NCBI GenBank assembly: GCA_037576195.1
Contig: CM075104.1
Coordinates: forward strand, 6,454,775 to 6,518,774
Reading direction: 5' to 3'
Source: Phytoseiulus persimilis
Lineage: Eukaryota; Arthropoda; Arachnida; Mesostigmata; Phytoseiidae
Length of the DNA: 64,000 nucleotides
Every line of letters starts with the position of its first letter. Position 1 is the first letter of the stretch. A program made the translations under genes and the position numbers. Below, piece after piece: positions 8,401-39,270 of this stretch. The notes beneath the pieces were generated by a model. That model had not been told where the DNA came from. It saw only the letters and a program-made list of their open reading frames with translations, and ran no database searches.

Positions 8401-9960
8401 CCGGTTCGGGGTAACAAGCAGAAGATGATCCGGGGTGCACGCAGCGGAAGGAGAGCCCGAACGCTGACGATACGGGAGAGGGTTAGCAGACTGTGACTGA
8501 CACCAGCATCACAGTATTCAACGGGCGTTGGATTCATCGTAGCTTCTGCTAGACGCACTCAATGCTGCCCTCCGATGTCGTCGATACGCGTCTTTATCGA
8601 GCGTGTGTATCGATGACCGCTAGGGAGGCTCCGCTTCAACCCGGTGTTTCCCTCCGCCAACAAACCAGACTGGGCGGGCAATCGAGCTGGACGGCGGGGC
8701 GACAACGCACCTAACACACGGGGAAATCTTTCGGGTCTTGATGGGGGCCGTCAACAGCAAACGCACGCCATTCAACGACACCCTCTGAAAGCGTCACTTC
8801 CTCTCTGTTTTCCCCCTCTCCGAGGCTTTCTGTCTGTTTCCCGGTGCTGCTCCCTGTTTTTCAACCTCCTCTCGCAGACATTCGGCGGATCGGTGCCGCA
8901 GGTCCCTCCCGATGGTTGGCGAATTGACTTACGGCTGGCAAACATACCTGCGGCGCCAGTGGCGGCCCGACATCGGGGCGCCACAGCGGAGATTAATGCA
9001 ATTGTTGTTGTTGTTGTTGGTGTCGGCGGCGGCGACATCACCGTCATTGCTTTGCACAAGCTGCCAACGAACCGGCCGACGGATCGATCGACCGACGGAC
9101 GGGCGGACGCTCGGTCGAAACTACAGACGGACCACCCACCTACTCATCCAAGTCCTCCGTTCGGGACCTTTATGTGGATCCTCACCATGAGCAGCCAACC
9201 GCCGACGGAACCGATAGCCCCGTCCCCGAATCACCGTGCACTTCGATCGATCCTAGTTGTTTCGTTTGCTAATACGATGACGGGGACAACAATGACGACA
9301 GCGATGACAACAACGTAGGAGGAGGAACTACGACAGGATCCCGCGAAGAAGGAAGCACGCAACATCGTGCAGGTGAGCGCCCGGTGGGCTGGAGGAGACA
9401 TTCGATGAAGGATGAACGCGCTCCGTAGTCGTTCATTCCGTAGCTGAAGCGACGACACAACTCCATCACCTGCAACTGCACACGAGGCCTATTCGGCCAG
9501 TCAGACAGGGCAACGGCGGCCACTTCGTCACTCCTCCAAAGACGAGAAAGGACGCGGCGACGATGAGGTGAGTCGCAAAGGACGTCGGCGACGACATACA
9601 GGCAGCTCTTGAGGTGACCTGGTTCGTCTCGTGCCGCCAGGGTTGGCATCAATCGCTCTTCCCGACCAGCCACTTCTCTCTCGGAATTCGTTCAGTGTTC
9701 CGTCTTATTCTTTTTACGTCTTCCGTGTTCCACTCTGTTGGCATGCGCACTCGTTCGCCTGAGCTATGCCGGGGGGACTCCCACAATTCTTCGCTCACTC
9801 GCGTTCGAGGAATGATTTTGTTCCCTCACTCACCGAGTGTACGGGAAAAGCCGAGTAGCACATCTGCTTGATAACTTCCCAGGAAAGACTATGGAGGAAA
9901 ATCGGCTTGGTCGATACATGTGATACAGTGCGCCTGCTCCATTATTGGGGCTCTCTCGAC
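5411..9960. other. Unassigned sequence with several simple repeats
   Basis: No exon is supported. Visible structure includes a GGTC/GGAC tetranucleotide run at about 6,290-6,318, a GTT/TTG run at about 9,002-9,020, and a short cluster of degenerate TTCAACCTCGAAT-like repeats between 8,044 and 8,160. Open frames such as plus 8,644-9,318 are low-complexity and unconvincing. From 9,961 onward the sequence is repeated at 24,618. Confidence 0.5.
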
Positions 9961-12900
9961 TCCGAAGGATCTGATTTGCTCCCGGCCCGGATGAACCATC
10001 AAGACGATGTTCTGACATTTTGGATCTCGATTCCTGAGACCGTCCATACTTCATCGAGGAATGCGACGATATTAACAAGTATTATTTTTCATCATAACTT
10101 GACTCTGAACACAGCCAAGAGACAGAAATCTCTCTGATCCAGCGAAAAACCCTATCGAGTGGGGAAGACTTGCCTAGCAATTTACACGATTCGGACTGTG
10201 AGATGCTGCGATTAGGACTTTCTTCCTGGAATATGCTCTGACATCGCTCGGTGAGACGAGGGGGCACACGGACACAATCGTTGAATGCGAGGCATTCTGG
10301 AATGATGCGGCGGTGAGTCTGAAATCTTTCGATTTCATTCCGATCGTCTGGTTCAATGTCTCAAAACCGACTAGGATTTCGACTCTCTGTGAACACCGGG
10401 CGGTCATTTCCACATTTTGTCGAGTATGCTCCGGCATCATCGATGAGCGATCCATCATCGAACTTGTTTCGCAACGGACAAAGACCGCTCCAGCCTTCCA
10501 CAACCGATTTCTACGTCATCCAACGTGGCGAAAAATGTCCATATCGAGTTTCGATGCAACTCGCATCCCGAACTCAGGCTGGAACCCGGAACGACCTCAG
10601 AGGTTCAAGAAGCGTCAGCGATAATTGGACCGAACCGCGCGAAAAGGAGAGGGAGCGAAGTCCGTCAAATCGACACCGCCTATTGCCAAACATGTCGAAG
10701 GAGGAGATGACGGGAGCGAAGAAGCCGCCTGGAATTCGCAAGGAGAATCTGCAATTCAAATCACCGTGAATCAGAATCCAACTCAGGAGAATTTATCGGA
10801 ACCATTTTTCAACGACACGCGGTCACAGCTTTGACGTTTCATCTCTGTACTCAGCCACAAAAGTTGTTGCGTAAACCCGTCATCCTGATTCTTCTCCTCT
10901 CCCTTCAGTTCCGTTTCCGCCACGTACCGCCTAATCCCTCGCTCAGTCTTCGGAGAGGTACAGCGACAGACGGACGGACGTACAGACAGACAGACAGCCC
11001 CTCCGACCGGCAGAGAGAAGTCTGCGCTCCTCCGAAAACTGACCCCGTTCGGAACGCTCCTTCGGAACTCATCCGCGACAGTTCCCGTCGGGAGCCCGTG
11101 GAATATTTCAGCGTTGTTCCGCTGGGGTGGAGTGAGGACATGGCGACACGTAGATTGATCGGGAACGCTGCTCGCCGTACGAAGAGATGCCGAAGGAGAT
11201 GAGCCCTGTGAAGTGTGTGTTGGGCCTGGGAGGCGGGGGAGGGAAGCTGAATTCTCGTACGAGCCCGGGAGTGAAGGCTTGAGTGGCCTGGGAGCTAATC
11301 GCTAGCTGGCCGACTTGGTCCACCGAGCCGTTCGCGGTTGCGGGAAGACGAACGTGTGTACGTGTTCCAACTCTACACGATGCACTCAAAGGAATTGGGA
11401 ACGGTGGCACCTCAACAGAAAGCTCGAGAGAGCCAACGGCGCCGCTGGTCGCGGCTGTAGCGGCGTCGTATGTTTCAGAGCGTTTCAACCAAATGGCAAT
11501 TTCATTGTAGCGCTTCTTAAACAAAACTTAGGTCTCCCGACTTGCTGCAAGGGCTTGATGTTCCTTCGATGACGGTGAGCCGGGCAGCCGCCGTTCTCAC
11601 CCTGGAAAGAAGATGCGAAACTCGAAGCGCAGGGGAAACTTTCATATCACCTGAAGTCTCTCCGGATCGTCGACAGGCGAAGCAACGACTCAAAAAAGAT
11701 TCCTCGAAGTCTCAGCGCTGAGCCCCGGGCGGATGAGTTGCGAATATCTCTGGAGAGAATAATCCTCCCCGGAAGGTCTCGGACCTCGAACAAAAGTTTT
11801 AGGTGAAATCCGATAGCACCGATGCGCATTGATATGATTCGGGTCTTCTAAGCTCGTCTCTTCTCCGTATCGTGTTTCCCATGATCTCAGAGGGTTCACG
11901 CAGAAGGGAAATTCCGAAACTCTCAACTCATCGTGGAGAGTTCGGACTCATGTCGAAAGATGGCCGCGCAAACCGCCGCTTTTCGGAGTTTCATCGAATC
12001 GAACTCGGGAGTCCGCATTTCAGAAAGTTGCGGTCTTGAAGTGCTCTGTTGGGGAACATAGTTGCCTTTTGCATAGGCCTCGATCGAACGAGGACTGCTA
12101 TTTGGAAGCCGCTGGAATAGACTCCGCTGAAAGCGGAGCCAACAAAGAGAACACCGAGAGAGGAGAGTTTTCCCGCGAAAAGTTCAAAGGCAGCATTGCA
12201 TCAAAAAACGGGGGTTTCTTGGGAGCGGGTCGAGGCAGGACAGGCAATGTTTGTCCTTCCGTAGTCAGCTTTGGATGCTCGATAGGGGCACGCGGAGGGC
12301 GAGAATATGGGCGCAGGCAGGCGCAGTGGAATAAGGGTGGAGGGATCGCAGTATCTCAGACGCAAGGGAAAAATCAACACTTGCGGTGTTTACTCATCCA
12401 ACAGAAGAAGCTCTGGGATCCCGAAAAGACAGAGAATGGCCGGGGAGAACGAGAGGAACCAAGAAGGACGTCCTGTTTATTTTGCTAACAGACAAATCTA
12501 CTCACCGAAAAAGGCGAACGTCAGAAGGCGCGGCTGGGACGCGGGGAGGATGGAAAAATAGAAGCGTCCCAGCGACAACAGTTCGGTGGCAAGAGAACGA
12601 ATAAACTACAATGAAAACAAGTCGCCCAGCTTAGGAGGCCTGGACAGTTCCCCCTATTATGTCGGAGCATTCGTTCATTTTGGATAGATTCACCTGCATA
12701 GGGAGAGATCGACGACGAGTCTCAGAAACATTATCTCTCCGCTCCGGGATCGTGCTTGTAAGAACTCGTTCAGTCGTTCGAGCTGAACCCTTCACAATGA
12801 TTCCAATCAGATTGATTCGTTTTCCACTGACCCACTTCAGTCACCCCCTCCCCACCCCCGAAAAGCCTCTCCAGCTTCCGCGACGGAGGTCGAGTGCTGC

Positions 12901-15900
12901 AGGCTGGTCGATCACGACCACGAGAAGCTCGAGGGATCCGTTCCGGGTTGTGCCTTCGATCCGAGATCGGATCCTAGGCCAGCGGTCCACCCCGGGAATA
13001 TCACGAGGCTTGATCATCGAGGAGGCGTGACGTCGGCTACGCCAGAACATCGGCATTCGAAGGTGTCTGTATGCAGACCAGGCTCAGCACGCAACGTTCC
13101 CGCTGCCGCCGAGTAGCAGGCTGTTCGAAGAATTTATCGAGCCTCCACTAGTTTCTCCGAAGAGCTTCCAACGATATGAAGAGTCAGCTTCGCGAAGAGA
13201 GTTATGCACCGCTCGATTTTTCGTCCCGTTCCAGCCCGCCCATGGAAATTCTCGCTAAACCAGGTGGAAGTATGCGTCCCAGTGAAACACTTGTGGGAGC
13301 TAGTCAGTTCGTGGTTTGGTTACCCCCCGTCGACGCCGTCAGTATCGGGGCGACTAGCTTCCAACGACTCGTCTCCTTACCACCAATTCGTTCTTTGACC
13401 AGCTTGTGTGCTTTCACGCACACTCCGACCGAGGCGCTCCCAGCCGATATAAACGGATCGTTTCTGGTGTTCGTGTTTGGTGTTGTTGGCCGGCTCACGA
13501 ACAGCGATAAACCGTCGGGCTGAAGCCGCTCGTAACGAACTTGTGCTGCGATCGATTTGGAAATGGAGATTCATTCATAGGCGTGTTGAGACTTGCTTCT
13601 CGCCCGGTTCCGTTTGTTTTCTCTCGGTGGCGGACGGATACATACAAAAGAAGAGACGGCACGAAAGCGGGAAGGGCGAACGGGCGTGCAAACAAACGCA
13701 GATGAGGACTACGCTGAACTACCGACGTCTCACGAATGGAAGCCAGGGCAGATAGACGCACGAACGGACCGGACGGATGGGAAGACTAAGAAGCGCAGCC
13801 GTCGCGGCTGCAGCAAAGAAAAGCAGCAAGTCATAAAAAGGTGTATTTTATTCACGCATCCGAAGCGGCCGTCTTGGCAAGAGAGCTCTCGCAGACAGCA
13901 CAGCTAGCGGAAGAGAAAGAAAGCAAAAAAAAGAGAGGAGACTTAGCTCTCAGAAGTGGCCGCCACGAGAAAGGAAAGTCTAATAGAGAAGCGAGGTGAT
14001 GCAACCAACTTTTTGTGGCGCTTCTTCCAAGCCAACCAAAGCGGAGCAGCCAGAGAAGAAGCTTTTCCAACTTTTGTCTTAGCTACCGCCCTTGCGTCCC
14101 CCCTCTTCGCCCCCGAACGCGAGCACCGATCCCTCTCCGGGGCCCCAACCCTCGCTGCGAGCCCTCGATGCTCTTCCATTATTAATTTTTTCTGCCCATA
14201 TTCTTCTCCGAGCGCCCGCTCCAGTGACTATCTCGGTTTCCGAACTTCACTCCCGCCGCGCTAGGCCCGGCCGTTCCCCCGGGGAAGCTCGTTCTGGTCT
14301 TCCCGCACCGCCCCTTCTCCTGCTCCCTAGCTCGAACTCTCCCTCTCCAGCTCCTCTCGTCCTCAACCGATCCTCTTTCCTTAATTCTCCATCCTACGGA
14401 GCTTAACACCAGGACCTTCATCTTCCCTCGTAGGTCATCTTGGACGGGGCACGAGAAAAAGAGGGACAGTCTGGGCAGCGAAAGTGGGACCAGAGAGCGA
14501 GAGATGGGGGAAACAAAAGAGTCGTGAAAAGGCTCCTCTTCGCTGCCCCTGCTCGTCAGAGTGTGTGGGTAGCTGGACGAGCCGCGATCGTAAGTCAACG
14601 GCACTTGCGTCGGAATACATAGGCGGAATGAAAAGGCGACACCGGGCCCGGGGAAAAACTTCCTTCCACCACCACGAATGAAACACTACCCGAGCAGGAT
14701 GGGGATGATCGCTTTTTGCATAAATTTCACGATTGCGCTGCAATGAGCTCTTCAAAGTTAATTTCGCGATGGACGCTCCAGCTCGAGCCCCGAATTCGTT
14801 CGAAATACGCAGCGGTCCTCCTTTCCCGGGGTCTTCCGCGAGGAAATGTAACAGACGATCAGTGACTTTGGAAAAAGTTCCCCTGGAAAATCCGGGATCC
14901 TTGGTGTCCAGTGGCGGCCTTGATTAGAGCAATGATTCACTAACGCCGACTCAGTTCGCCGATCCTGCCACGACCTACATTCAGAGGCATCAGAAAAACT
15001 AATTCACTCATGCACGATTCCCGTTCATCCTCGGCGCGACTCCAGCCATTGCCGACTCTCGAGGGACATTGTGGAGCTGAGCTCCATTAATGAGGTTAAA
15101 CACACGGAACTTCCTGCTCTTCCGCTCCCTGGCATTCCCTAAGGAGAGCTCGCCGCGATTGTGGATAGGGTGCTTGGTGCCGAAGGTGAACACTTCAAAA
15201 TTCGACTCCATAGATGCCACCTCAAAATATCGAAGAGGCTCGAACTCCGAGTTGCGACTTCAGTTTGGACACACACTTGGACTGAGCCTAGATTTTCACG
15301 GGACTCTCCCCAACTGGAGAACGATTCCTCATTCCTGGCTCGCAAAGCCTTCCGCGTCCACGCATGGGCCCCCTGGCGGGAAACCGAGGGTTCGAGCGCT
15401 CAGATACGCTGTGACCTCTCACTCGAAACAGCTTCATGAAAATTCCGTAACAGTTAGGATTCACTCGCATGATATTCGGACCGATATTGGAGCGAGTCCA
15501 ACAGAAAGCGGGAGCGGGTCGCGATGCCAACGTCATGGGAGGAATCAGCAGTGCGATGACGCAGCAGCAGGACAACTAATTCGTTATGTTGTGAGTCGAT
15601 GTTGTGTCATCACGCTTCCCGCTGCCGATCTCCTGGAACACTTACCCGAGGGCAATTCGGCTTCCACAACCGCCACTCCCAGATACCCGACTTCCACCTG
15701 CTCGAGTTCTCTCCGTGATTCAGGTGATTGAGGACAAAACTTGGGCTGAATGACTCTGAGGTGTTCAAGGTGAAAGGCTTCAAGGTGAACTACTGCATCA
15801 AATATTTCTGATAGATTAGATAGCCGGTACCAAATGACAGCGACAGAATAGTTTCAGTTGGAGCTACCCAAAGTTAGCGATGAATGCGCATCACGTAAGT

Positions 15901-18900
15901 TGTGAGATAATCAAGATTGGATATGATTTTAGTTCCTCTCGACAGAGGGTATCGTGCAGGATAGAGGAAATCGAGCGAATAAGTTCGAGAAATGACAAAA
16001 CTGTCAAGAAGACAGCCCAGAACGGAAAACGGAAGCGAAGATTCGAAAAGATGTGCGGAGTATTCTCAGCGCTTGAAGGGTTGAGTGTTCATATCTCGGG
16101 AGCGCATGGATAGATTCTCCCTCCAGATAACCTCCAGCGGAGCGGAGAAACGTCCGACGGCGAGGAGCGACGACGACCACCACGGATCCAGCAGAAAAAG
16201 AACGGCAAAAGAACGTAAGGAGAGCCCGAAGCACGATGCAAGCAGCAGGAAATGAAACTGTCACCGGGTTTGAACGTAACATAATTAAGGAAGTCTGTCG
16301 GCGGCTGTGTCTTGAAAGAGATAAAAAGAGCTTTCCCTTTGCCTTCCTCCTCTTTCCGACCGCGTGCCCTTCTTGCCGAACCCAGCCCCACTTTCGTATG
16401 GCCCCCACGCCGTTCTTCTCTCAGTTCTCTCTTAGAACCCCTTTGCAGCCTCCAGCGCCTAGGATCGCTACAATTGCTGAAGCCCCCGCAAATCCCGGGC
16501 CCTTCAGTCCCTGGGAAATCCCGCGATTCAATGTCCGCCAGCCCAGCGGCAGTCAACCCGCCAGGACAGACTTTCGAGGCCGAATCCATGCTAGCCAGCG
16601 AACGAAATTCAGGAAACGGCCGCATAAAAGCGCTGGGGATTACGGAGCGGAAGTCGACAGATTCCGGCTCCTCTCCTCCTCCGTTTCCAGCCAGCGTCTC
16701 AGCCAGTCGCCCGAACCCCGCGCTTGAACTCGATGTCGAGGACCACGACGAGTCCGACGAGAGTCTGGGTTGTGCCGACGAGACGCGGAACAACCCGGAA
16801 AAACAAGCTGACGCGGCAAGTGGACACCTGCTCTTCAGTCACCCGAGCTCTGAGGTGCCCAGCAGCAGGGAATCCACCTGCCCACCCATTCAGCCGTCCG
16901 ACCCCCACGGTTCCTGGAGTTGCCAGCGATAGTGAAGGTGGTGGTTCGCGGCTGCTGTTACCCCGAAAGCTCGGCATGTGCGTTATAGCTCAAAACTCCT
17001 CTCCAGCAGGCACAACATGGGGTCCCAGGTGGCGGCTACCGCTGGACGTACATTGTAATGCGCATAATACTTGCCAGATGGCTCCCGATTCAAGTGCGCT
17101 TAGTACGTTTTAACTCGAGCAAACACACTTGGAACGGACTCTTGCAGTTGGATCAACAGTGGGAGCAGCGAAGCTCTACGTCGCCATAACTTCGACCGTA
17201 CCTCCCGGTGGAACTTCCCTCGACTGGGAACGGTTCCCCATTCATTCTGAAACTTGCAGAGTCTACGGACGATTCGGGAGGGAGCTCTCCTCCTGACAGA
17301 AAATTTCAAAGGACTCTCGCCAGGAGAATAACAGGCACGATTATTCAACAAGGAGCAGGAACACGCGGAGATGAAATATGAATACAACTTTTTTCCTCGC
17401 TTCTGAGCCCTTCGTCACGTAAGCGGCTGTCAAAGAAGCCCCGCACGTCGACCCTGTCCGTGACCACTGCACCACTAAATGGAAGGCGAAGAGGAAATTG
17501 ATGCCATCTGTGAAAGTTGGTCAGCTCATCATCATCTTCCTCATCACCGCCTCAACGCGACGTCAAAAAGCGTCGCTTACCTCGTTCCTCCCATTCGTCA
17601 ACGGATAACGTCCTCGTCGGAAGTCTGCTCTCGCCCACAAAGCAGTACCGTAGTCCTGTGTAGGCGCCGCAGTCATTAAGGAGCCGGCGGCATCGGTTGT
17701 CAGAGAGGAACCGAAGGAGAAGAATGAGGCAAGCATCCACGCAGGCAAAAATCTGGTCGGTGGCTAACGTGAAGGGCAACGGAGGAACGGCGGCATCGAT
17801 CCCGTAGTTCGGTGATGGCGGCGGTGTAATAAGGGCTCGCATAGTGCATCTTTTTAGCAGCGCCCAGCACCCTATGAGACGGACGAACGAACGGGGTTAT
17901 GCTAATATCGTATTTAGCAGATCACGAGGAATGAACCGCCAGCACCGCTCTCTTTCCGCCGCTCCTCCGCTAATCTAGCGGCAATTTGGCTCCCGATGCT
18001 CTCGTTGATGCTCCCGCAGTTCCTCGCGCACATTGTTCTTCCCGTATCCACACTTTTATAGTGCACGCGCTTGTGTTGGTGGGTGCTCGCGTCCATGCAT
18101 GCAAGTTCGCAGCTTTGATTCGGGAGGAAATTACAGAAAAACTGCCTCAGCCGCAGATCGATAACCAAATACATAACAACACGGAGCTAACTGCTTGCCG
18201 ATGACCTCGCTCACATACCGACAGGAAGAGCGAACGGCAACAGTCTTCGACATCGGAGCCTCAGAGTTGTGACCTGCGCCTTATGCTCGCCGGATAATTC
18301 GAGCGGTCGTTCATGTAATCTATCGTGCCCCGATGAATCACCGTAAAAAGCAACGTCAGGAAAGGAGATCAGCTCGAGAAATATTTTGGCTCCTCACTGA
18401 CTCGTTTGTTTGGAGCGGAGTATCTTCCCGCCGTACGATGATGGGTTCGATAGGACGACCCAGACCGTGGACGACCAGGTTGTTCTCTCGTCGACACTCG
18501 TGTTCGCCGTGGCTGTAGCCGCCGCGATGGTGCTTGTTGCTGCTGCCGCCGTCGTTGTTGAAGTATGCTTGTCGTTGTTGTTGTGTAGCGGCAGTTGGGG
18601 CAAGCCATCAAGCCGTGACATCGTCTTCCACTAGCCTTCCTTATGGAAGATCCTTGTCGATAATTTGTCGAACGCGGTCAAGCCTTGCTTTCATGATGAA
18701 CAGAGGCCATCAGCTCCCCTCATTTGTTCCCAGCCGCTTCCCCACTTCACTTCGCGATTGCTTAGGTCCCATCCGATGTTCTTCCCCGTTCTTATCGATG
18801 CCAAATAATAAGAGCACCATAACCCCGTTTTCCCGACCGAATAATGCAACGCCGAGATTGCGCTCATCCAGTTTTCTTACTCATGGAGTTTTCGAGCGGT

Positions 18901-21900
18901 GCTCCTCAACTGGAAGAAATGGATGCCGCGGGGAATGCTTCGATGGAGAGATTTTTCGATTTTCTCCACTAAAATCGGATGAGAAAAACATGAGAATCAT
19001 GAAGACGAAAATGAATGGATGAATTCCCTGGTTCAACATGTCGTGTTTATCCTTATCAGCGTGGAGACGCTCCGGCTTTTGTAGGGGCGAGCCAGGGGAG
19101 TGGAGGCCATCGGGCGGTAAATACAGGGTTGTTGGATGGAGTCGAGTATTTTTTTTACCCTTTGTCCTCCTGCTCATTAGTTCGTGGAAAATGATAAAGT
19201 TAGATTCTTCCCTACGATCGATTGTTTGGAGGATAGCGCGTGTTTTCATTTACTCCGCGGCGATCGGTAGAGGATTGCGTTTCCTGAAGCGGCTCAAAAC
19301 TTCCCCTCCCTTTAATTGGATCGTTGACTGAACTAACCCGGTATAGCCGGTACGATTCAACGCGAAGAACAGCCCCACCATCTCTCCATCTAAAGCAGCG
19401 AGAATCGCTCCAGAGCTCGAGGGAGGGTAGGCGGTGGTATCATCTCGAAAGCCGCTGATTTCTCGACAAAATCTCGCCACCGTTGCCGTTCTTCGTCTTT
19501 TTCTTGGAATGGCGAATGCCGAAGAATTCACACTGTTGACGAGTTCGCGAATCGATCGAAACGACCCGGTTCCGCATCGAATCACGCCCGTACGAGCTCG
19601 ATCGGTTGACTTTTGACGTTTCCCGTTCAATGGAACGATACATTGTCGAGAAAGCGCTATGAGATGCGTTCTTCCACCTGAGAGCGCGAACATTAAACAA
19701 CAGCACGCGCTACCCTTCCGGCTTTCTATCCTGAAGGAGAAATCCCGAATCCGATGTTCCACAAAGTAATGAGCGAAACAAGATAAATTAGAAGGTTGCC
19801 GACTCAATCTGACCACCCTGTGGGTAGATTTTTTCGACGACGAATACGACCTTGAGTTGGAGGAAGAGCAAATGGCGCTCTCTCGGGAGATTTCCGAGCC
19901 AGCGGCCTTCCGGACGTCGTGGCGCTGCCAGTCGGTACTTAACCGCCCAAACACCCGCAATTCCGAGGAGTTTGCACATATTCGAGGCCCGCGAGAAACT
20001 AAGCGGTTTCGCGAGTTTTTCGACGGGTCTCCGGTCGGCCTTAGAGCAACGTGCGGAGGAGAAACTAGCGCCAACTCCCCGGAGCGAATTGAACAGCCAA
20101 GTTTCAAAACGTCACATCTACACTTTTTCGGTTTTTGAGTCTCCAACGATGAATCGTGGTCATGTACACAGCTGACGAAATTCTATTGTCGCCACTTCAG
20201 GGTTACACAGCCGCGGAGCGCCATCGATTTCTCTGGATAGCAGTCGAAATTCACGCGCGAAAACGGTCAAAAAAAATATCGGTCAGATGGAGATGTGACG
20301 TTCTGAATCTGGAGGCCTGGAATCTCTACAACTGAGACGCGACAGAGAATCGAGACGCGAAGCACAGAAGATGGATTGCGCTCTCGAGCACATGACTGGG
20401 ATTCGACGACATTGATCGTATGAGCGGGAGGATAACATTTTTGGCCTGTGCAGCGCAAGAATTTCTCCGACTGATGCTCGGTCCACGTATGCCGAGGACA
20501 ATCATCAACTCGCTACACTGCACCGCACATATTGTACCGATCGGGACGTCTCCTGATTCGAAATACGAGGAGTCATGTTCAGCGGAGAACCGCGTTGCAT
20601 TGGTTGATTTCAACGGAAGATTGAGGTTTCGGAAATTGCCACCTATAGATGGGTGTGACAATTTGGATCTCGACCCGATTTTTCATCGTGAGAATCCACC
20701 AAAAAGTCCGAAAGTCGTTCATTGCGGCTAGTACCCGAGGCCGAAACTTTTACTTATCAATCAGAGCTATTATTATACACCGACAATCGGGAACTCTCCG
20801 CTCCGGCCACTGAGAACGACGCTCTCGAATTCAATGGCAGTATAATGGATATTTCTCGTCCCATGAGCGACTCGATGAACTCGGATGAGCCGTTCGAATA
20901 GTAATCAAACCAGACGAGGGTTGATGGCGTCGGGATCTCCTCCTTTCTGACCGAATCTGATTCATGTCTGCGAACGGGCTTCAGCGGCGCCTGAGAGTTT
21001 TGCGGGTCTGACCCGCGGCCGAAACCCGCGGGGGAACCCATCGGTGGTAGGGCAACCCAGACTTCATGCGAAGCGTGCCTACTTTGCGGGCATGGAAAGT
21101 CGACTGAAGAAGCTCGTCCCGAAGGAGGTACACTTTCCTCGAGGCTCGAATTCCCCCTAGAATGGATCTTGCTGCCTCCTACTCGTCAAGTGTTTTGCAT
21201 GGGTAGAATTTCCTCCAGCGGAAACACCGAATCGCTCACCCACCGCTCCTCTCTTACCATTCGGGGGTCTTTCCGGGACCGTTCCGTTCATTCTACTGGC
21301 GCTTGCCGTCAGCCTGTCCGAAGATTCCCGTTTGCGTCCATTTTGTGGCTTCTAGTCGTTCTTGATGAGAGAAGTCCCTAATGACATGCAGGAGCCGGAG
21401 TGGGTAGAGCTCGACTGCAAGTTTGCGGTCTGCAGCCGCATCCGAGATGCTTCTCGTGAGTTTCCGCGCAACCTCCAAGTCGGAGCGGTGTAGCGCCGCT
21501 TGACGAGGAGGTGAACATGGACGAGTTTTTCGAAACGCGCTCTTCGGTGGTGATGGTTGCTCGGAATTTTCCGGCAGACGCCGGAGACAGATGGTAAATG
21601 GCAAGATGGATGGCCTTTCTCGGCCGAAAAGCAAGTAAAAGAAAAACAGCAGGAATTGCTCAAGTTTGCGTTCCAACTGCGGGGAGAGTTCGCTTCCGTG
21701 GGGACCTGCGAGAGGGCCATGAAGGAGAACAAAGCTGGTTAATCTTCACCGGGGAAAAAAGGTGGAGAAATTCTCCCAAAGATCCGTGACGAAACAGCGA
21801 ACGCGAACTGTGCATTTCCGCCATCCACGCTCGCGCGATTTCGCTCGTCCGAGTTCCCAGAATCGACGCCGAAACGCTCGCCTCGATAGAAAACTGTCTC

Positions 21901-24616: not shown

Positions 24617-24617
24617 N
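24617..24617. other. Single-N join between contigs
   Basis: One ambiguous base sits exactly between the end of copy A (...ACATGT) and the start of copy B (TCCGAAGGATC...). Some scaffolders place a single n where the estimated gap between two contigs is zero or negative. The position coincides to the base with the breakpoints of the duplication. Confidence 0.95.
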
Positions 24618-27600
24618 TCCGAAGGATCTGATTTGCTCCCGGCCCGGATGAACCATCAAGACGATGTTCTGACATTTTGGATCTCGATTCCTGAGACCGT
24701 CCATACTTCATCGAGGAATGCGACGATATTAACAAGTATTATTTTTCATCATAACTTGACTCTGAACACAGCCAAGAGACAGAAATCTCTCTGATCCAGC
24801 GAAAAACCCTATCGAGTGGGGAAGACTTGCCTAGCAATTTACACGATTCGGACTGTGAGATGCTGCGATTAGGACTTTCTTCCTGGAATATGCTCTGACA
24901 TCGCTCGGTGAGACGAGGGGGCACACGGACACAATCGTTGAATGCGAGGCATTCTGGAATGATGCGGCGGTGAGTCTGAAATCTTTCGATTTCATTCCGA
25001 TCGTCTGGTTCAATGTCTCAAAACCGACTAGGATTTCGACTCTCTGTGAACACCGGGCGGTCATTTCCACATTTTGTCGAGTATGCTCCGGCATCATCGA
25101 TGAGCGATCCATCATCGAACTTGTTTCGCAACGGACAAAGACCGCTCCAGCCTTCCACAACCGATTTCTACGTCATCCAACGTGGCGAAAAATGTCCATA
25201 TCGAGTTTCGATGCAACTCGCATCCCGAACTCAGGCTGGAACCCGGAACGACCTCAGAGGTTCAAGAAGCGTCAGCGATAATTGGACCGAACCGCGCGAA
25301 AAGGAGAGGGAGCGAAGTCCGTCAAATCGACACCGCCTATTGCCAAACATGTCGAAGGAGGAGATGACGGGAGCGAAGAAGCCGCCTGGAATTCGCAAGG
25401 AGAATCTGCAATTCAAATCACCGTGAATCAGAATCCAACTCAGGAGAATTTATCGGAACCATTTTTCAACGACACGCGGTCACAGCTTTGACGTTTCATC
25501 TCTGTACTCAGCCACAAAAGTTGTTGCGTAAACCCGTCATCCTGATTCTTCTCCTCTCCCTTCAGTTCCGTTTCCGCCACGTACCGCCTAATCCCTCGCT
25601 CAGTCTTCGGAGAGGTACAGCGACAGACGGACGGACGTACAGACAGACAGACAGCCCCTCCGACCGGCAGAGAGAAGTCTGCGCTCCTCCGAAAACTGAC
25701 CCCGTTCGGAACGCTCCTTCGGAACTCATCCGCGACAGTTCCCGTCGGGAGCCCGTGGAATATTTCAGCGTTGTTCCGCTGGGGTGGAGTGAGGACATGG
25801 CGACACGTAGATTGATCGGGAACGCTGCTCGCCGTACGAAGAGATGCCGAAGGAGATGAGCCCTGTGAAGTGTGTGTTGGGCCTGGGAGGCGGGGGAGGG
25901 AAGCTGAATTCTCGTACGAGCCCGGGAGTGAAGGCTTGAGTGGCCTGGGAGCTAATCGCTAGCTGGCCGACTTGGTCCACCGAGCCGTTCGCGGTTGCGG
26001 GAAGACGAACGTGTGTACGTGTTCCAACTCTACACGATGCACTCAAAGGAATTGGGAACGGTGGCACCTCAACAGAAAGCTCGAGAGAGCCAACGGCGCC
26101 GCTGGTCGCGGCTGTAGCGGCGTCGTATGTTTCAGAGCGTTTCAACCAAATGGCAATTTCATTGTAGCGCTTCTTAAACAAAACTTAGGTCTCCCGACTT
26201 GCTGCAAGGGCTTGATGTTCCTTCGATGACGGTGAGCCGGGCAGCCGCCGTTCTCACCCTGGAAAGAAGATGCGAAACTCGAAGCGCAGGGGAAACTTTC
26301 ATATCACCTGAAGTCTCTCCGGATCGTCGACAGGCGAAGCAACGACTCAAAAAAGATTCCTCGAAGTCTCAGCGCTGAGCCCCGGGCGGATGAGTTGCGA
26401 ATATCTCTGGAGAGAATAATCCTCCCCGGAAGGTCTCGGACCTCGAACAAAAGTTTTAGGTGAAATCCGATAGCACCGATGCGCATTGATATGATTCGGG
26501 TCTTCTAAGCTCGTCTCTTCTCCGTATCGTGTTTCCCATGATCTCAGAGGGTTCACGCAGAAGGGAAATTCCGAAACTCTCAACTCATCGTGGAGAGTTC
26601 GGACTCATGTCGAAAGATGGCCGCGCAAACCGCCGCTTTTCGGAGTTTCATCGAATCGAACTCGGGAGTCCGCATTTCAGAAAGTTGCGGTCTTGAAGTG
26701 CTCTGTTGGGGAACATAGTTGCCTTTTGCATAGGCCTCGATCGAACGAGGACTGCTATTTGGAAGCCGCTGGAATAGACTCCGCTGAAAGCGGAGCCAAC
26801 AAAGAGAACACCGAGAGAGGAGAGTTTTCCCGCGAAAAGTTCAAAGGCAGCATTGCATCAAAAAACGGGGGTTTCTTGGGAGCGGGTCGAGGCAGGACAG
26901 GCAATGTTTGTCCTTCCGTAGTCAGCTTTGGATGCTCGATAGGGGCACGCGGAGGGCGAGAATATGGGCGCAGGCAGGCGCAGTGGAATAAGGGTGGAGG
27001 GATCGCAGTATCTCAGACGCAAGGGAAAAATCAACACTTGCGGTGTTTACTCATCCAACAGAAGAAGCTCTGGGATCCCGAAAAGACAGAGAATGGCCGG
27101 GGAGAACGAGAGGAACCAAGAAGGACGTCCTGTTTATTTTGCTAACAGACAAATCTACTCACCGAAAAAGGCGAACGTCAGAAGGCGCGGCTGGGACGCG
27201 GGGAGGATGGAAAAATAGAAGCGTCCCAGCGACAACAGTTCGGTGGCAAGAGAACGAATAAACTACAATGAAAACAAGTCGCCCAGCTTAGGAGGCCTGG
27301 ACAGTTCCCCCTATTATGTCGGAGCATTCGTTCATTTTGGATAGATTCACCTGCATAGGGAGAGATCGACGACGAGTCTCAGAAACATTATCTCTCCGCT
27401 CCGGGATCGTGCTTGTAAGAACTCGTTCAGTCGTTCGAGCTGAACCCTTCACAATGATTCCAATCAGATTGATTCGTTTTCCACTGACCCACTTCAGTCA
27501 CCCCCTCCCCACCCCCGAAAAGCCTCTCCAGCTTCCGCGACGGAGGTCGAGTGCTGCAGGCTGGTCGATCACGACCACGAGAAGCTCGAGGGATCCGTTC

Positions 27601-30600
27601 CGGGTTGTGCCTTCGATCCGAGATCGGATCCTAGGCCAGCGGTCCACCCCGGGAATATCACGAGGCTTGATCATCGAGGAGGCGTGACGTCGGCTACGCC
27701 AGAACATCGGCATTCGAAGGTGTCTGTATGCAGACCAGGCTCAGCACGCAACGTTCCCGCTGCCGCCGAGTAGCAGGCTGTTCGAAGAATTTATCGAGCC
27801 TCCACTAGTTTCTCCGAAGAGCTTCCAACGATATGAAGAGTCAGCTTCGCGAAGAGAGTTATGCACCGCTCGATTTTTCGTCCCGTTCCAGCCCGCCCAT
27901 GGAAATTCTCGCTAAACCAGGTGGAAGTATGCGTCCCAGTGAAACACTTGTGGGAGCTAGTCAGTTCGTGGTTTGGTTACCCCCCGTCGACGCCGTCAGT
28001 ATCGGGGCGACTAGCTTCCAACGACTCGTCTCCTTACCACCAATTCGTTCTTTGACCAGCTTGTGTGCTTTCACGCACACTCCGACCGAGGCGCTCCCAG
28101 CCGATATAAACGGATCGTTTCTGGTGTTCGTGTTTGGTGTTGTTGGCCGGCTCACGAACAGCGATAAACCGTCGGGCTGAAGCCGCTCGTAACGAACTTG
28201 TGCTGCGATCGATTTGGAAATGGAGATTCATTCATAGGCGTGTTGAGACTTGCTTCTCGCCCGGTTCCGTTTGTTTTCTCTCGGTGGCGGACGGATACAT
28301 ACAAAAGAAGAGACGGCACGAAAGCGGGAAGGGCGAACGGGCGTGCAAACAAACGCAGATGAGGACTACGCTGAACTACCGACGTCTCACGAATGGAAGC
28401 CAGGGCAGATAGACGCACGAACGGACCGGACGGATGGGAAGACTAAGAAGCGCAGCCGTCGCGGCTGCAGCAAAGAAAAGCAGCAAGTCATAAAAAGGTG
28501 TATTTTATTCACGCATCCGAAGCGGCCGTCTTGGCAAGAGAGCTCTCGCAGACAGCACAGCTAGCGGAAGAGAAAGAAAGCAAAAAAAAGAGAGGAGACT
28601 TAGCTCTCAGAAGTGGCCGCCACGAGAAAGGAAAGTCTAATAGAGAAGCGAGGTGATGCAACCAACTTTTTGTGGCGCTTCTTCCAAGCCAACCAAAGCG
28701 GAGCAGCCAGAGAAGAAGCTTTTCCAACTTTTGTCTTAGCTACCGCCCTTGCGTCCCCCCTCTTCGCCCCCGAACGCGAGCACCGATCCCTCTCCGGGGC
28801 CCCAACCCTCGCTGCGAGCCCTCGATGCTCTTCCATTATTAATTTTTTCTGCCCATATTCTTCTCCGAGCGCCCGCTCCAGTGACTATCTCGGTTTCCGA
28901 ACTTCACTCCCGCCGCGCTAGGCCCGGCCGTTCCCCCGGGGAAGCTCGTTCTGGTCTTCCCGCACCGCCCCTTCTCCTGCTCCCTAGCTCGAACTCTCCC
29001 TCTCCAGCTCCTCTCGTCCTCAACCGATCCTCTTTCCTTAATTCTCCATCCTACGGAGCTTAACACCAGGACCTTCATCTTCCCTCGTAGGTCATCTTGG
29101 ACGGGGCACGAGAAAAAGAGGGACAGTCTGGGCAGCGAAAGTGGGACCAGAGAGCGAGAGATGGGGGAAACAAAAGAGTCGTGAAAAGGCTCCTCTTCGC
29201 TGCCCCTGCTCGTCAGAGTGTGTGGGTAGCTGGACGAGCCGCGATCGTAAGTCAACGGCACTTGCGTCGGAATACATAGGCGGAATGAAAAGGCGACACC
29301 GGGCCCGGGGAAAAACTTCCTTCCACCACCACGAATGAAACACTACCCGAGCAGGATGGGGATGATCGCTTTTTGCATAAATTTCACGATTGCGCTGCAA
29401 TGAGCTCTTCAAAGTTAATTTCGCGATGGACGCTCCAGCTCGAGCCCCGAATTCGTTCGAAATACGCAGCGGTCCTCCTTTCCCGGGGTCTTCCGCGAGG
29501 AAATGTAACAGACGATCAGTGACTTTGGAAAAAGTTCCCCTGGAAAATCCGGGATCCTTGGTGTCCAGTGGCGGCCTTGATTAGAGCAATGATTCACTAA
29601 CGCCGACTCAGTTCGCCGATCCTGCCACGACCTACATTCAGAGGCATCAGAAAAACTAATTCACTCATGCACGATTCCCGTTCATCCTCGGCGCGACTCC
29701 AGCCATTGCCGACTCTCGAGGGACATTGTGGAGCTGAGCTCCATTAATGAGGTTAAACACACGGAACTTCCTGCTCTTCCGCTCCCTGGCATTCCCTAAG
29801 GAGAGCTCGCCGCGATTGTGGATAGGGTGCTTGGTGCCGAAGGTGAACACTTCAAAATTCGACTCCATAGATGCCACCTCAAAATATCGAAGAGGCTCGA
29901 ACTCCGAGTTGCGACTTCAGTTTGGACACACACTTGGACTGAGCCTAGATTTTCACGGGACTCTCCCCAACTGGAGAACGATTCCTCATTCCTGGCTCGC
30001 AAAGCCTTCCGCGTCCACGCATGGGCCCCCTGGCGGGAAACCGAGGGTTCGAGCGCTCAGATACGCTGTGACCTCTCACTCGAAACAGCTTCATGAAAAT
30101 TCCGTAACAGTTAGGATTCACTCGCATGATATTCGGACCGATATTGGAGCGAGTCCAACAGAAAGCGGGAGCGGGTCGCGATGCCAACGTCATGGGAGGA
30201 ATCAGCAGTGCGATGACGCAGCAGCAGGACAACTAATTCGTTATGTTGTGAGTCGATGTTGTGTCATCACGCTTCCCGCTGCCGATCTCCTGGAACACTT
30301 ACCCGAGGGCAATTCGGCTTCCACAACCGCCACTCCCAGATACCCGACTTCCACCTGCTCGAGTTCTCTCCGTGATTCAGGTGATTGAGGACAAAACTTG
30401 GGCTGAATGACTCTGAGGTGTTCAAGGTGAAAGGCTTCAAGGTGAACTACTGCATCAAATATTTCTGATAGATTAGATAGCCGGTACCAAATGACAGCGA
30501 CAGAATAGTTTCAGTTGGAGCTACCCAAAGTTAGCGATGAATGCGCATCACGTAAGTTGTGAGATAATCAAGATTGGATATGATTTTAGTTCCTCTCGAC

Positions 30601-33600
30601 AGAGGGTATCGTGCAGGATAGAGGAAATCGAGCGAATAAGTTCGAGAAATGACAAAACTGTCAAGAAGACAGCCCAGAACGGAAAACGGAAGCGAAGATT
30701 CGAAAAGATGTGCGGAGTATTCTCAGCGCTTGAAGGGTTGAGTGTTCATATCTCGGGAGCGCATGGATAGATTCTCCCTCCAGATAACCTCCAGCGGAGC
30801 GGAGAAACGTCCGACGGCGAGGAGCGACGACGACCACCACGGATCCAGCAGAAAAAGAACGGCAAAAGAACGTAAGGAGAGCCCGAAGCACGATGCAAGC
30901 AGCAGGAAATGAAACTGTCACCGGGTTTGAACGTAACATAATTAAGGAAGTCTGTCGGCGGCTGTGTCTTGAAAGAGATAAAAAGAGCTTTCCCTTTGCC
31001 TTCCTCCTCTTTCCGACCGCGTGCCCTTCTTGCCGAACCCAGCCCCACTTTCGTATGGCCCCCACGCCGTTCTTCTCTCAGTTCTCTCTTAGAACCCCTT
31101 TGCAGCCTCCAGCGCCTAGGATCGCTACAATTGCTGAAGCCCCCGCAAATCCCGGGCCCTTCAGTCCCTGGGAAATCCCGCGATTCAATGTCCGCCAGCC
31201 CAGCGGCAGTCAACCCGCCAGGACAGACTTTCGAGGCCGAATCCATGCTAGCCAGCGAACGAAATTCAGGAAACGGCCGCATAAAAGCGCTGGGGATTAC
31301 GGAGCGGAAGTCGACAGATTCCGGCTCCTCTCCTCCTCCGTTTCCAGCCAGCGTCTCAGCCAGTCGCCCGAACCCCGCGCTTGAACTCGATGTCGAGGAC
31401 CACGACGAGTCCGACGAGAGTCTGGGTTGTGCCGACGAGACGCGGAACAACCCGGAAAAACAAGCTGACGCGGCAAGTGGACACCTGCTCTTCAGTCACC
31501 CGAGCTCTGAGGTGCCCAGCAGCAGGGAATCCACCTGCCCACCCATTCAGCCGTCCGACCCCCACGGTTCCTGGAGTTGCCAGCGATAGTGAAGGTGGTG
31601 GTTCGCGGCTGCTGTTACCCCGAAAGCTCGGCATGTGCGTTATAGCTCAAAACTCCTCTCCAGCAGGCACAACATGGGGTCCCAGGTGGCGGCTACCGCT
31701 GGACGTACATTGTAATGCGCATAATACTTGCCAGATGGCTCCCGATTCAAGTGCGCTTAGTACGTTTTAACTCGAGCAAACACACTTGGAACGGACTCTT
31801 GCAGTTGGATCAACAGTGGGAGCAGCGAAGCTCTACGTCGCCATAACTTCGACCGTACCTCCCGGTGGAACTTCCCTCGACTGGGAACGGTTCCCCATTC
31901 ATTCTGAAACTTGCAGAGTCTACGGACGATTCGGGAGGGAGCTCTCCTCCTGACAGAAAATTTCAAAGGACTCTCGCCAGGAGAATAACAGGCACGATTA
32001 TTCAACAAGGAGCAGGAACACGCGGAGATGAAATATGAATACAACTTTTTTCCTCGCTTCTGAGCCCTTCGTCACGTAAGCGGCTGTCAAAGAAGCCCCG
32101 CACGTCGACCCTGTCCGTGACCACTGCACCACTAAATGGAAGGCGAAGAGGAAATTGATGCCATCTGTGAAAGTTGGTCAGCTCATCATCATCTTCCTCA
32201 TCACCGCCTCAACGCGACGTCAAAAAGCGTCGCTTACCTCGTTCCTCCCATTCGTCAACGGATAACGTCCTCGTCGGAAGTCTGCTCTCGCCCACAAAGC
32301 AGTACCGTAGTCCTGTGTAGGCGCCGCAGTCATTAAGGAGCCGGCGGCATCGGTTGTCAGAGAGGAACCGAAGGAGAAGAATGAGGCAAGCATCCACGCA
32401 GGCAAAAATCTGGTCGGTGGCTAACGTGAAGGGCAACGGAGGAACGGCGGCATCGATCCCGTAGTTCGGTGATGGCGGCGGTGTAATAAGGGCTCGCATA
32501 GTGCATCTTTTTAGCAGCGCCCAGCACCCTATGAGACGGACGAACGAACGGGGTTATGCTAATATCGTATTTAGCAGATCACGAGGAATGAACCGCCAGC
32601 ACCGCTCTCTTTCCGCCGCTCCTCCGCTAATCTAGCGGCAATTTGGCTCCCGATGCTCTCGTTGATGCTCCCGCAGTTCCTCGCGCACATTGTTCTTCCC
32701 GTATCCACACTTTTATAGTGCACGCGCTTGTGTTGGTGGGTGCTCGCGTCCATGCATGCAAGTTCGCAGCTTTGATTCGGGAGGAAATTACAGAAAAACT
32801 GCCTCAGCCGCAGATCGATAACCAAATACATAACAACACGGAGCTAACTGCTTGCCGATGACCTCGCTCACATACCGACAGGAAGAGCGAACGGCAACAG
32901 TCTTCGACATCGGAGCCTCAGAGTTGTGACCTGCGCCTTATGCTCGCCGGATAATTCGAGCGGTCGTTCATGTAATCTATCGTGCCCCGATGAATCACCG
33001 TAAAAAGCAACGTCAGGAAAGGAGATCAGCTCGAGAAATATTTTGGCTCCTCACTGACTCGTTTGTTTGGAGCGGAGTATCTTCCCGCCGTACGATGATG
33101 GGTTCGATAGGACGACCCAGACCGTGGACGACCAGGTTGTTCTCTCGTCGACACTCGTGTTCGCCGTGGCTGTAGCCGCCGCGATGGTGCTTGTTGCTGC
33201 TGCCGCCGTCGTTGTTGAAGTATGCTTGTCGTTGTTGTTGTGTAGCGGCAGTTGGGGCAAGCCATCAAGCCGTGACATCGTCTTCCACTAGCCTTCCTTA
33301 TGGAAGATCCTTGTCGATAATTTGTCGAACGCGGTCAAGCCTTGCTTTCATGATGAACAGAGGCCATCAGCTCCCCTCATTTGTTCCCAGCCGCTTCCCC
33401 ACTTCACTTCGCGATTGCTTAGGTCCCATCCGATGTTCTTCCCCGTTCTTATCGATGCCAAATAATAAGAGCACCATAACCCCGTTTTCCCGACCGAATA
33501 ATGCAACGCCGAGATTGCGCTCATCCAGTTTTCTTACTCATGGAGTTTTCGAGCGGTGCTCCTCAACTGGAAGAAATGGATGCCGCGGGGAATGCTTCGA

Positions 33601-36600
33601 TGGAGAGATTTTTCGATTTTCTCCACTAAAATCGGATGAGAAAAACATGAGAATCATGAAGACGAAAATGAATGGATGAATTCCCTGGTTCAACATGTCG
33701 TGTTTATCCTTATCAGCGTGGAGACGCTCCGGCTTTTGTAGGGGCGAGCCAGGGGAGTGGAGGCCATCGGGCGGTAAATACAGGGTTGTTGGATGGAGTC
33801 GAGTATTTTTTTTACCCTTTGTCCTCCTGCTCATTAGTTCGTGGAAAATGATAAAGTTAGATTCTTCCCTACGATCGATTGTTTGGAGGATAGCGCGTGT
33901 TTTCATTTACTCCGCGGCGATCGGTAGAGGATTGCGTTTCCTGAAGCGGCTCAAAACTTCCCCTCCCTTTAATTGGATCGTTGACTGAACTAACCCGGTA
34001 TAGCCGGTACGATTCAACGCGAAGAACAGCCCCACCATCTCTCCATCTAAAGCAGCGAGAATCGCTCCAGAGCTCGAGGGAGGGTAGGCGGTGGTATCAT
34101 CTCGAAAGCCGCTGATTTCTCGACAAAATCTCGCCACCGTTGCCGTTCTTCGTCTTTTTCTTGGAATGGCGAATGCCGAAGAATTCACACTGTTGACGAG
34201 TTCGCGAATCGATCGAAACGACCCGGTTCCGCATCGAATCACGCCCGTACGAGCTCGATCGGTTGACTTTTGACGTTTCCCGTTCAATGGAACGATACAT
34301 TGTCGAGAAAGCGCTATGAGATGCGTTCTTCCACCTGAGAGCGCGAACATTAAACAACAGCACGCGCTACCCTTCCGGCTTTCTATCCTGAAGGAGAAAT
34401 CCCGAATCCGATGTTCCACAAAGTAATGAGCGAAACAAGATAAATTAGAAGGTTGCCGACTCAATCTGACCACCCTGTGGGTAGATTTTTTCGACGACGA
34501 ATACGACCTTGAGTTGGAGGAAGAGCAAATGGCGCTCTCTCGGGAGATTTCCGAGCCAGCGGCCTTCCGGACGTCGTGGCGCTGCCAGTCGGTACTTAAC
34601 CGCCCAAACACCCGCAATTCCGAGGAGTTTGCACATATTCGAGGCCCGCGAGAAACTAAGCGGTTTCGCGAGTTTTTCGACGGGTCTCCGGTCGGCCTTA
34701 GAGCAACGTGCGGAGGAGAAACTAGCGCCAACTCCCCGGAGCGAATTGAACAGCCAAGTTTCAAAACGTCACATCTACACTTTTTCGGTTTTTGAGTCTC
34801 CAACGATGAATCGTGGTCATGTACACAGCTGACGAAATTCTATTGTCGCCACTTCAGGGTTACACAGCCGCGGAGCGCCATCGATTTCTCTGGATAGCAG
34901 TCGAAATTCACGCGCGAAAACGGTCAAAAAAAATATCGGTCAGATGGAGATGTGACGTTCTGAATCTGGAGGCCTGGAATCTCTACAACTGAGACGCGAC
35001 AGAGAATCGAGACGCGAAGCACAGAAGATGGATTGCGCTCTCGAGCACATGACTGGGATTCGACGACATTGATCGTATGAGCGGGAGGATAACATTTTTG
35101 GCCTGTGCAGCGCAAGAATTTCTCCGACTGATGCTCGGTCCACGTATGCCGAGGACAATCATCAACTCGCTACACTGCACCGCACATATTGTACCGATCG
35201 GGACGTCTCCTGATTCGAAATACGAGGAGTCATGTTCAGCGGAGAACCGCGTTGCATTGGTTGATTTCAACGGAAGATTGAGGTTTCGGAAATTGCCACC
35301 TATAGATGGGTGTGACAATTTGGATCTCGACCCGATTTTTCATCGTGAGAATCCACCAAAAAGTCCGAAAGTCGTTCATTGCGGCTAGTACCCGAGGCCG
35401 AAACTTTTACTTATCAATCAGAGCTATTATTATACACCGACAATCGGGAACTCTCCGCTCCGGCCACTGAGAACGACGCTCTCGAATTCAATGGCAGTAT
35501 AATGGATATTTCTCGTCCCATGAGCGACTCGATGAACTCGGATGAGCCGTTCGAATAGTAATCAAACCAGACGAGGGTTGATGGCGTCGGGATCTCCTCC
35601 TTTCTGACCGAATCTGATTCATGTCTGCGAACGGGCTTCAGCGGCGCCTGAGAGTTTTGCGGGTCTGACCCGCGGCCGAAACCCGCGGGGGAACCCATCG
35701 GTGGTAGGGCAACCCAGACTTCATGCGAAGCGTGCCTACTTTGCGGGCATGGAAAGTCGACTGAAGAAGCTCGTCCCGAAGGAGGTACACTTTCCTCGAG
35801 GCTCGAATTCCCCCTAGAATGGATCTTGCTGCCTCCTACTCGTCAAGTGTTTTGCATGGGTAGAATTTCCTCCAGCGGAAACACCGAATCGCTCACCCAC
35901 CGCTCCTCTCTTACCATTCGGGGGTCTTTCCGGGACCGTTCCGTTCATTCTACTGGCGCTTGCCGTCAGCCTGTCCGAAGATTCCCGTTTGCGTCCATTT
36001 TGTGGCTTCTAGTCGTTCTTGATGAGAGAAGTCCCTAATGACATGCAGGAGCCGGAGTGGGTAGAGCTCGACTGCAAGTTTGCGGTCTGCAGCCGCATCC
36101 GAGATGCTTCTCGTGAGTTTCCGCGCAACCTCCAAGTCGGAGCGGTGTAGCGCCGCTTGACGAGGAGTGAACATGGACGAGTTTTTCGAAACGCGCTCTT
36201 CGGTGGTGATGGTTGCTCGGAATTTTCCGGCAGACGCCGGAGACAGATGGTAAATGGCAAGATGGATGGCCTTTCTCGGCCGAAAAGCAAGTAAAAGAAA
36301 AACAGCAGGAATTGCTCAAGTTTGCGTTCCAACTGCGGGGAGAGTTCGCTTCCGTGGGGACCTGCGAGAGGGCCATGAAGGAGAACAAAGCTGGTTAATC
36401 TTCACCGGGGAAAAAAGGTGGAGAAATTCTCCCAAAGATCCGTGACGAAACAGCGAACGCGAACTGTGCATTTCCGCCATCCACGCTCGCGCGATTTCGC
36501 TCGTCCGAGTTCCCAGAATCGACGCCGAAACGCTCGCCTCGATAGAAAACTGTCTCTCCTTCAGACACCGGGCCTCAGGCTGGAAAAATCTTCGTCGGAA

Positions 36601-39270
36601 AGGAGATTCTCGAGGAAACCACAGAGGAGGCACGCTGTTCGCGAGTCACGAAACTCGCAAGGTGGAGGAGGCCAAAACCGCTCACCGGCGAGCTTGGCCG
36701 CGCCCCTCTGCCTGGATTCTGCCTTTCCGTCCTCTAGTTACTTACTCACTCAGTTCACTGACGCCTTGGACAAAGTCTACAATGAAAAATGACCGTCCAT
36801 CGTCACGGCTCGCCTGGTTGGCCGGCCGTACGCCCATGCCATCAGCCGAGCTACAAGGAGGACGAGGGGGCCACCAGCTCGACGACAACGCTGACGACGA
36901 CGACGACGACCGCCTCTACGAGGACGACAACATCCACTAAAAGCGTTTAGCACGCTCAACTGACCGCTAGTGTCATCTGCGACACGAGAAGTAACTGTGC
37001 CGCTCATGAAGCGTCTCCTGAGCCAAGTGGCGGCTCGCCCGACCCGGTGCCCGCAGCCCGCCTTCCTAGTTGGTTGGATCCTTTACTTCTCGGCTGGTCT
37101 GCCATCAGACCCACAACGGGTGGAGGGCCCCCACCCCCGGAAATCTCACAGGCTTCCATAGCCCCATATTCGCCCTATCCCAGTCGTCAAACTGAGCGTC
37201 TAGCAAATCGTCACAAAAGTTGTTGGCAAAGTTTTTCCCATCGGCTTGTTTCTCGCGCACTGCTTGTTTAAGTGCTGGACAAAAAAGATGCCGCTTTGAC
37301 TGACCTCGAAGGAGCAACGTCGAGCGTCACTCGCCGCCGAAACGAGTAAGTAAGCGAGCAACAACTCGAATCAAAATTCTCCACGCAGACAGAACAACGA
37401 CTGACCGCTCCAGTGAATCGCTCGCCTTGTGGTCGAGTGGCACCCTCGGTGTCCCAAGAATGGGGAAAGAACACGAGCATCTCGGGAGCTGGCGCCCCGG
37501 CGAGGTATCGGGACGGCGGTCGCTCACTCTTCCTCACACCGACCGACCAGTCAACCAGGCCACAAAGCGGGGACAACAGCGCAGTGGAGCAACTTTGGCA
37601 ACTTTTCACGCACTTCACCCCCAAAACAACCGGCAGCATGGCGGCTGCGGCCGAATCATCCGAGTTCGGCTGCAAAGTGCTTCGCCCCCTTCGGTCTTTC
37701 TGAAGTGCTTGCTTGCGCACTCACTCATCCGACTGCTCACTCACTTGTCCGTGTGTCCGCCTGCCCGCGCGCCTCGACACCCCCAAGTTCTCGAGAAATA
37801 TCTCTCGGAACGGACGAGTGAGCTCGATGCAGCCATTCAGGCTGGCAGTCGGCAAGACTAGACACGACAGGGCTCAATCCCAGCGGCTCTGATTCAGAAC
37901 GAATTTAATTTCCATCAGCTTTCTAGGGAGCTTCGGGACCGAATAAACAGGATGGGACAAAAATATCGCTCTGAGTCGGACAGCTGCGCGCTCTTTTGAT
38001 AAACCCCCTTAGCATCCGAACTCAGTTCAATGTCGTCAGCGATTTGGAAACTTGCTCACTCTTCTCGAGACTCGAACACGACCGAAGCTATTATCTTGAA
38101 CATCAGGAGTGCGTTATGAACCTGGAGATCGACATATTCCCGGTTTTGACTCTTCGAGCTACATATTAACCCCGGAAGCATCGTTCCGGTTTTTTTTTTC
38201 CTGATTCTCAGATGTGAACATCGTGAATCCGCCCTATCGTCACTTGGTTGATTCGGTTGCTGATTCTGATCAAAGTTTCCATGAATTTTTTCTCGAAACG
38301 GAGGCTCTCTATGAGCATGAATCATGGGTCGAGTTTTATGGAAATCCGTCGAAGTCATTTCGGCCACAGTTATCTCCGAAAAATGACGCGTCAAACGGAA
38401 ACTTCCCTCTAAATATGAGAATCTTTCGGTTATCCTTCTCTGACGGATACTGCCGTCCGTGGAGAGCTCCGCGTACAAATCCCTGGTCGACGGAAATTCA
38501 GCGCACCTTCAGCGATGGAGTCGGAATGGGAAACGTTCGCCTGGACTTTCATTTGGCGAAAATCGATGATCGAAAGTGCGCGAGTGTTTCGAAGCACCCA
38601 CGGCTCATTGCAATATTAGACCAGACGACGTTTTATATGAGAGCCCAAATTCTCAGGAGCACCGTAAACGGAACATGCCGACGTTTTTTTTCCATCGGGC
38701 ACCGTGGAGGACGGGGCGAAGCAAATATCCTGACCGCATGCACTTTTCCGAACCACGGAAAGTCGAACGGAGTCGTAGTATGGGGAACGGAGCACCGACG
38801 GAAGCTGATGGAAAGGACTCCTGTTGTGATCGGGTCACAACGAATCGAGCAATCAGAAGAAATGTGAAGACATGGAACTCGTTCTGACAGAAAAGCGTAC
38901 TGAGCCACTCTCCCCCAGCGGTGAGTCGGCCCACTTTCGATCGATGGATCGCAAAAGCCGCTGAGCTTCAAGCGGCAACGAAGGACGATCTCATCTAAGA
39001 CGAGATCGCCGTTCCGAGGGATTCCTCTCAATATAATCACGAAGTGACTTCCTTCCGTAGCGAGGGCAAACGTACGGAGGCCGCGCGATCCTCCTCGCCT
39101 GTTCCGGAGATAAGTTCGTGGCGCTTGATGATGAGGCCAAACCTCACGACCAACGCATACACAAGACTCACATCAGAACTTGCAGACGTCCGGTAGCGTT
39201 GCGATCATGTGCGGAACAGAGATGGACACCGTTTCGAACCAATTTGACCAGTGACAAAATGAAAACATGT
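24618..39270. repeat. 14.65 kb direct duplication, copy B
   Basis: This is the second occurrence of 9,961-24,616. It ends with the same ACATGT (39,265-39,270) and then continues into unique sequence. Because its noisy counterpart lies at the tip of copy A, this copy probably gives the better base calls for its last 3 kb. No gene is recognised. A 213-codon open frame (38,229-38,867 plus) differs between the copies by a compensating pair of indels and has no recognisable motif, so it is not annotated as a gene. Confidence 0.97.

Follow-up and report, generated by a model that had tools for sequence, protein, structure and literature searches.

Two copies of a unit of about 14.66 kb lie head to tail in a 64,000-nucleotide stretch of the Phytoseiulus persimilis assembly (180,977,233 bases, 127 contigs), hereafter the window (C4:6,454,775-6,518,774), and are separated by a single N (Table 1). 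The G+C content of the window is 52%, with 0.531 in each copy, 0.536 on the left side and 0.499 on the right side.

Table 1. Features of the duplicated region, in window coordinates
Feature	Position	Strand	Role	Basis
Copy A	9961..24616	+	right-hand end of the presumed left contig	no substitution and nine one-base indels relative to copy B
Copy B	24618..39270	+	left-hand end of the presumed right contig	alignment to copy A
Single N	24617	.	inner join, presumed overlap placeholder	sole non-ACGT letter of the window; LINKS n convention
Copy A tip	21511..24616	+	presumed low-quality end of the left contig	contains all nine indels
Left flank	9900..9960	+		unbroken into copy A; without microhomology to the unit end
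Right flank	39271..39330	+		unbroken from copy B; without microhomology to the unit start

Within the unit, a dispersed element, about 600 bases in length, occupies positions 20,079-20,683 and is found again in the second copy at 34,736-35,340, with at least 40 further genome rows at 66-78% identity, and shorter dispersed matches lie just ahead of it at about 19,150-19,830. A Pfam search at E 0.01 returned no match for any of 11 open reading frames of the copy (nine from copy A and two from copy B, a small part of the copy's reading frames); the window also yielded neither an Rfam match at gathering score nor a tRNA call. An earlier sequence-only reading of this DNA had warned that gene counts over the region would be doubled, and the small part of the reading frames that was scanned provided no example. 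Since none of the 11 had a Pfam match, reading frames do not indicate which copy is correct where the two differ.

The sequence to the right of copy B contains several further features. A repeat no shorter than 120 bases (39581-39700) is dispersed over more than 30 other sites among the matches listed, mostly at 85-91% identity; it may represent a SINE-like family, truncated here by the end of the query. On the reverse strand, an open frame of 365 aa (42067-43161) matches Transposase_1 (E 5.3e-30) and the Mos1 HTH domain (E 5.2e-20), which identifies a mariner-type transposase. It is followed by an imperfect inverted repeat (43640-45776), noted alongside L030:3815-8308, with arms of about 820 bases at 88% identity and 45-base tandem arrays near the centre in both arms. 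By eye, its 45-base unit looks similar to the repeat unit, also of 45 bases, of an array of 100 copies located about 24 kb to the right of the window, and the inverted repeat could be an element seeding satellite arrays. In addition, three exon-like frames were found: a ubiquitin-like frame on the forward strand (49515-49715, E 1e-4, under the curated cut-off), which we take to resemble UBL5, and two on the reverse strand that match the diacylglycerol kinase catalytic domain (54144-54299, E 1.7e-5, over the curated cut-off) and acyl-CoA binding protein (56704-57165, E 6.8e-6, just under the curated cut-off).

Differences between the two copies

When the window up to the N (1-24,616) was compared by BLASTN with the remainder (24,618-64,000), the only match returned was that between copy A and copy B, which extends over 14,659 columns at 99.939% identity with no mismatch, nine gap openings and nine gap bases. 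Chance similarity is ruled out by a match of 14.66 kb at 99.94%, and the 23-base start of the unit occurs twice in the window, compared to 0.00 expected occurrences. The alignment thus bears out the count of nine one-base indels and no substitutions given in the sequence-only reading, and the lone N that it had placed at the copy boundary is indeed the only one in the window, located exactly between the copies.

A letter-by-letter walk placed the indels at copy A positions 21,511, 22,256, 22,483, 22,563, 23,544, 23,603, 24,010, 24,104 and 24,244, with the extra base in copy A at six of them and in copy B at three. The first 11,550 bases of the unit are identical between the copies, all nine indels fall within the last 3,106 of the 14,656 bases of copy A, adjoining the N, and the final 372 bases of copy A are identical to copy B again. 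For nine independent, uniformly distributed positions, such clustering has a probability of 8.6e-7, or 1.7e-6 when either end is counted. Eight of the nine indels alter the length of a single-base run (for example T9 versus T10, with the doubling of a single base also scored as a run-length change), and the remaining one removes a lone C. The excess of run-length changes is only mild, because 46% of the bases of the copy already stand in runs of at least two. Stronger signals are that substitutions are lacking and that the indels are clustered: zero substitutions in nine differences has a probability of 0.002 if substitutions make up half of the true differences, and of 5e-7 if they make up 80%. 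On these sequence patterns, the differences between the copies look like errors, not alleles.

This distinction bears on heterotype false duplication, in which two alleles of one diploid locus are placed in series. In the accessible text of a study of false duplications, heterotype duplication is the main source in three vertebrate species (PMC9516828), and the available passages of the BiSCoT paper likewise state that overlaps left unfused are usually allelic duplications (PMC7649008). Alleles should carry substitutions, however, and none was found in 14,659 columns; the differences consist of one-base indels only, which are all confined to one end of the unit and of which eight of nine lie in single-base runs. 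An inbred or haploid sample could still yield identical alleles, and overall an allelic origin is most improbable.

A genuine tandem duplication of 14.66 kb that arose very recently fares little better against the same observations. It would have to be too young to have acquired one substitution in 14.65 kb, and it offers no cause for nine indels that all lie at the tip next to the N; divergence that is spread along the unit and includes substitutions, which is expected of a real duplication unless it is very young, was not found in the alignment. It is this combination of a one-sided indel cluster and no substitutions that disfavours it.

If instead the two copies are the same sequence carried by two overlapping contigs, the simplest cause of the nine indels would be consensus errors made where long-read depth drops towards the end of the left contig. 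Copy B begins at what would likewise be a contig end under the overlap model, yet its start shows no differences from copy A, and the error pattern is therefore one-sided. The excerpted text of the BiSCoT paper also reports that short reads tend to polish just one of the duplicated copies (PMC7649008). Polishing of one copy alone would not account for the indels here, as it would scatter differences along the whole unit, unlike the cluster at the tip.

Joins, copy number and neighbouring N runs

Two genome sites carry the unit start at full identity, one after the left flank and one after the N, and two carry the unit end, one before the N and one running into the right flank. Both outer joins are continuous, and the junction of unit end and unit start is present in the assembly solely across the N. 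The outer joins are those that one copy would give, and the third join, the only one specific to a duplication, is seen across the N alone; continuous sequence through this inner junction, as a real tandem duplication would provide, was not found in the assembly. The outer joins are nevertheless identical under both models. Furthermore, a diverged match (C4:26,729,517-26,729,892, 70% identity) spans the outer right join (window 39,209-39,572), which fits ordinary genomic sequence at this point and is predicted by both models.

Repeat-graph assemblers can terminate contigs at repeat edges. The collapsed repeat of a real duplication could accordingly have left two contigs, one consisting of flank and unit and the other of unit and flank, that were then joined by one N, and a boundary gap alone is compatible with a real duplication. 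The sequence-only reading thus overstated its case in arguing that the breakpoint of a real duplication would not coincide with an assembly gap. Breakpoint microhomology amounts to 0 bases on either side, which speaks against a real duplication, though inserted bases could be concealed under the N. The 80 bases before the N showed nothing unusual when folded (z = 1.63, with 193 of 200 shuffles folding at least as well). On balance, a real tandem duplication is highly unlikely.

Searches of the organism's own genome with window segments 9,661-10,660, 10,661-13,660, 13,661-16,660 and 16,661-19,100 each matched two copies only. Segment 19,961-24,616 gave two full-length copies and at least 40 partial rows of 66-78% identity, which derive from the dispersed element within it. 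No third full-length copy was found among the matches listed for 9,661-19,100 and 19,961-24,616. A transposon or satellite was rejected as the cause of the duplication, as the dispersed elements miss the ends of the copies and are too short and too diverged to account for a repeat of 14.66 kb.

As a regional control, the window was extended by 100 kb on each side to 264 kb, and the 20 kb flanks of every N run were compared with each other. Besides the single N, this region contains three longer N runs with lengths of 73-76, which makes four in all. Overlapping flanks were found at the single N only (14,659 columns) and at none of the three longer runs, which may represent gaps of estimated size. 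A second single-N join was not found in the 264 kb, so that no pattern can be demonstrated there. Self-comparison of the same region (matches of at least 200 bases and at least 85% identity) returned 98 rows, of which one is the present duplication, one an inverted repeat in the window, two a short tandem repeat, and 94 a single 45-base array. The first-listed row of this array has 265 substitutions versus three gap openings, which shows that repeats here do accumulate substitutions, a satellite being an imperfect control for a segmental duplication.

Scaffolding conventions and the origin of the duplication

A join of this form has a printed precedent. According to the accessible part of the LINKS description, the FASTA output of this scaffolder pads gaps with Ns and marks contig overlaps with a single n (PMC4524009), and by analogy the contigs here would stand in order with the overlap duplicated and one N between them; one N is indeed what is found at the point where the flanking sequences overlap. 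As this is the only printed convention found, and in it a single n denotes overlap, it also argues against a real duplication. The length of the overlap sets the present case apart. In the same passages, contig pairs outside the allowed distance are ignored, and overlaps of at least 400 bases drop out at a distance of 4 kb (PMC4524009). An overlap of 14.66 kb is beyond the tolerance at this short-distance setting, and LINKS at short distances would not have made the join because the distance tolerance would have been exceeded. Since links outside the allowed distance are rejected, a join by LINKS would require long-distance settings, or else another tool was used.

Comparable artefacts have been described for other methods. 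Bionano scaffolding yields a similar false duplication, which is marked with 13 Ns and is corrected by BiSCoT, as stated in the available text of PMC7649008. It resembles the present case in that shared contig ends of several kb are placed in series, and differs in writing 13 Ns where a single N stands here. In the excerpts of PMC9516828, a gap between duplicates on the same scaffold is taken as a mark of false duplication; homotype false duplications of this kind share with the present locus the location on one scaffold, the gap between the copies (here the N at 24,617) and differences that resemble sequencing errors. Further marks of this class are lowered read depth on the copies, discordant read pairs and a lack of allele-specific k-mers (PMC9516828). 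A table of the same paper, as far as it is available, gives an older hummingbird assembly in which homotype exceeds heterotype duplication, unlike the overall trend (PMC9516828). The accessible passages of PMC8389630 refer to negative gaps as artefactual tandem duplications. In the passages available from PMC7736779, PMC8233370, PMC5368935 and PMC8110574, two of the four papers mention the closing of negative gaps with BiSCoT, and none mentions a single N.

Taken together, the duplication is most likely an assembly artefact, an unmerged overlap of the same sequence in two contigs, to which we assign a probability of about 0.88 on the basis of sequence comparisons. The sequence-only reading had proposed overlapping contigs with a negative gap written as one n, and the sequence-level tests support it: the N lies at the inner join, the outer joins are unbroken, no third copy was found in the segments searched, substitutions are absent and the indels are clustered. 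The proposed course of events is that one genomic stretch of about 14.66 kb, presumably single-copy in the genome, was contained in two contigs, which the scaffolder would have ordered adjacently, writing the negative gap as one N. The tool behind the join was probably a scaffolder that denotes an overlap by a single n; the shared stretch, left unmerged, would then appear as two copies in series. An artefact of this kind is ordinary.

To conclude, were the duplication real after all, an improbable outcome, it would be extremely young, its unit would have been collapsed in the assembly, and its copy number may vary in the population. As an unmerged overlap, if left uncorrected, it would lengthen a 28 Mb scaffold by about 14.65 kb of false tandem sequence, and surveys of repeats or copy number would mistake it for a segmental duplication of recent date. 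Since no gene was detected in the small part of the unit that was scanned, surveys of duplication and copy number would be harmed most. The combination of one N, overlapping flanks and indels confined to the tip could be used across the whole assembly as a signature for spotting other unmerged overlaps.
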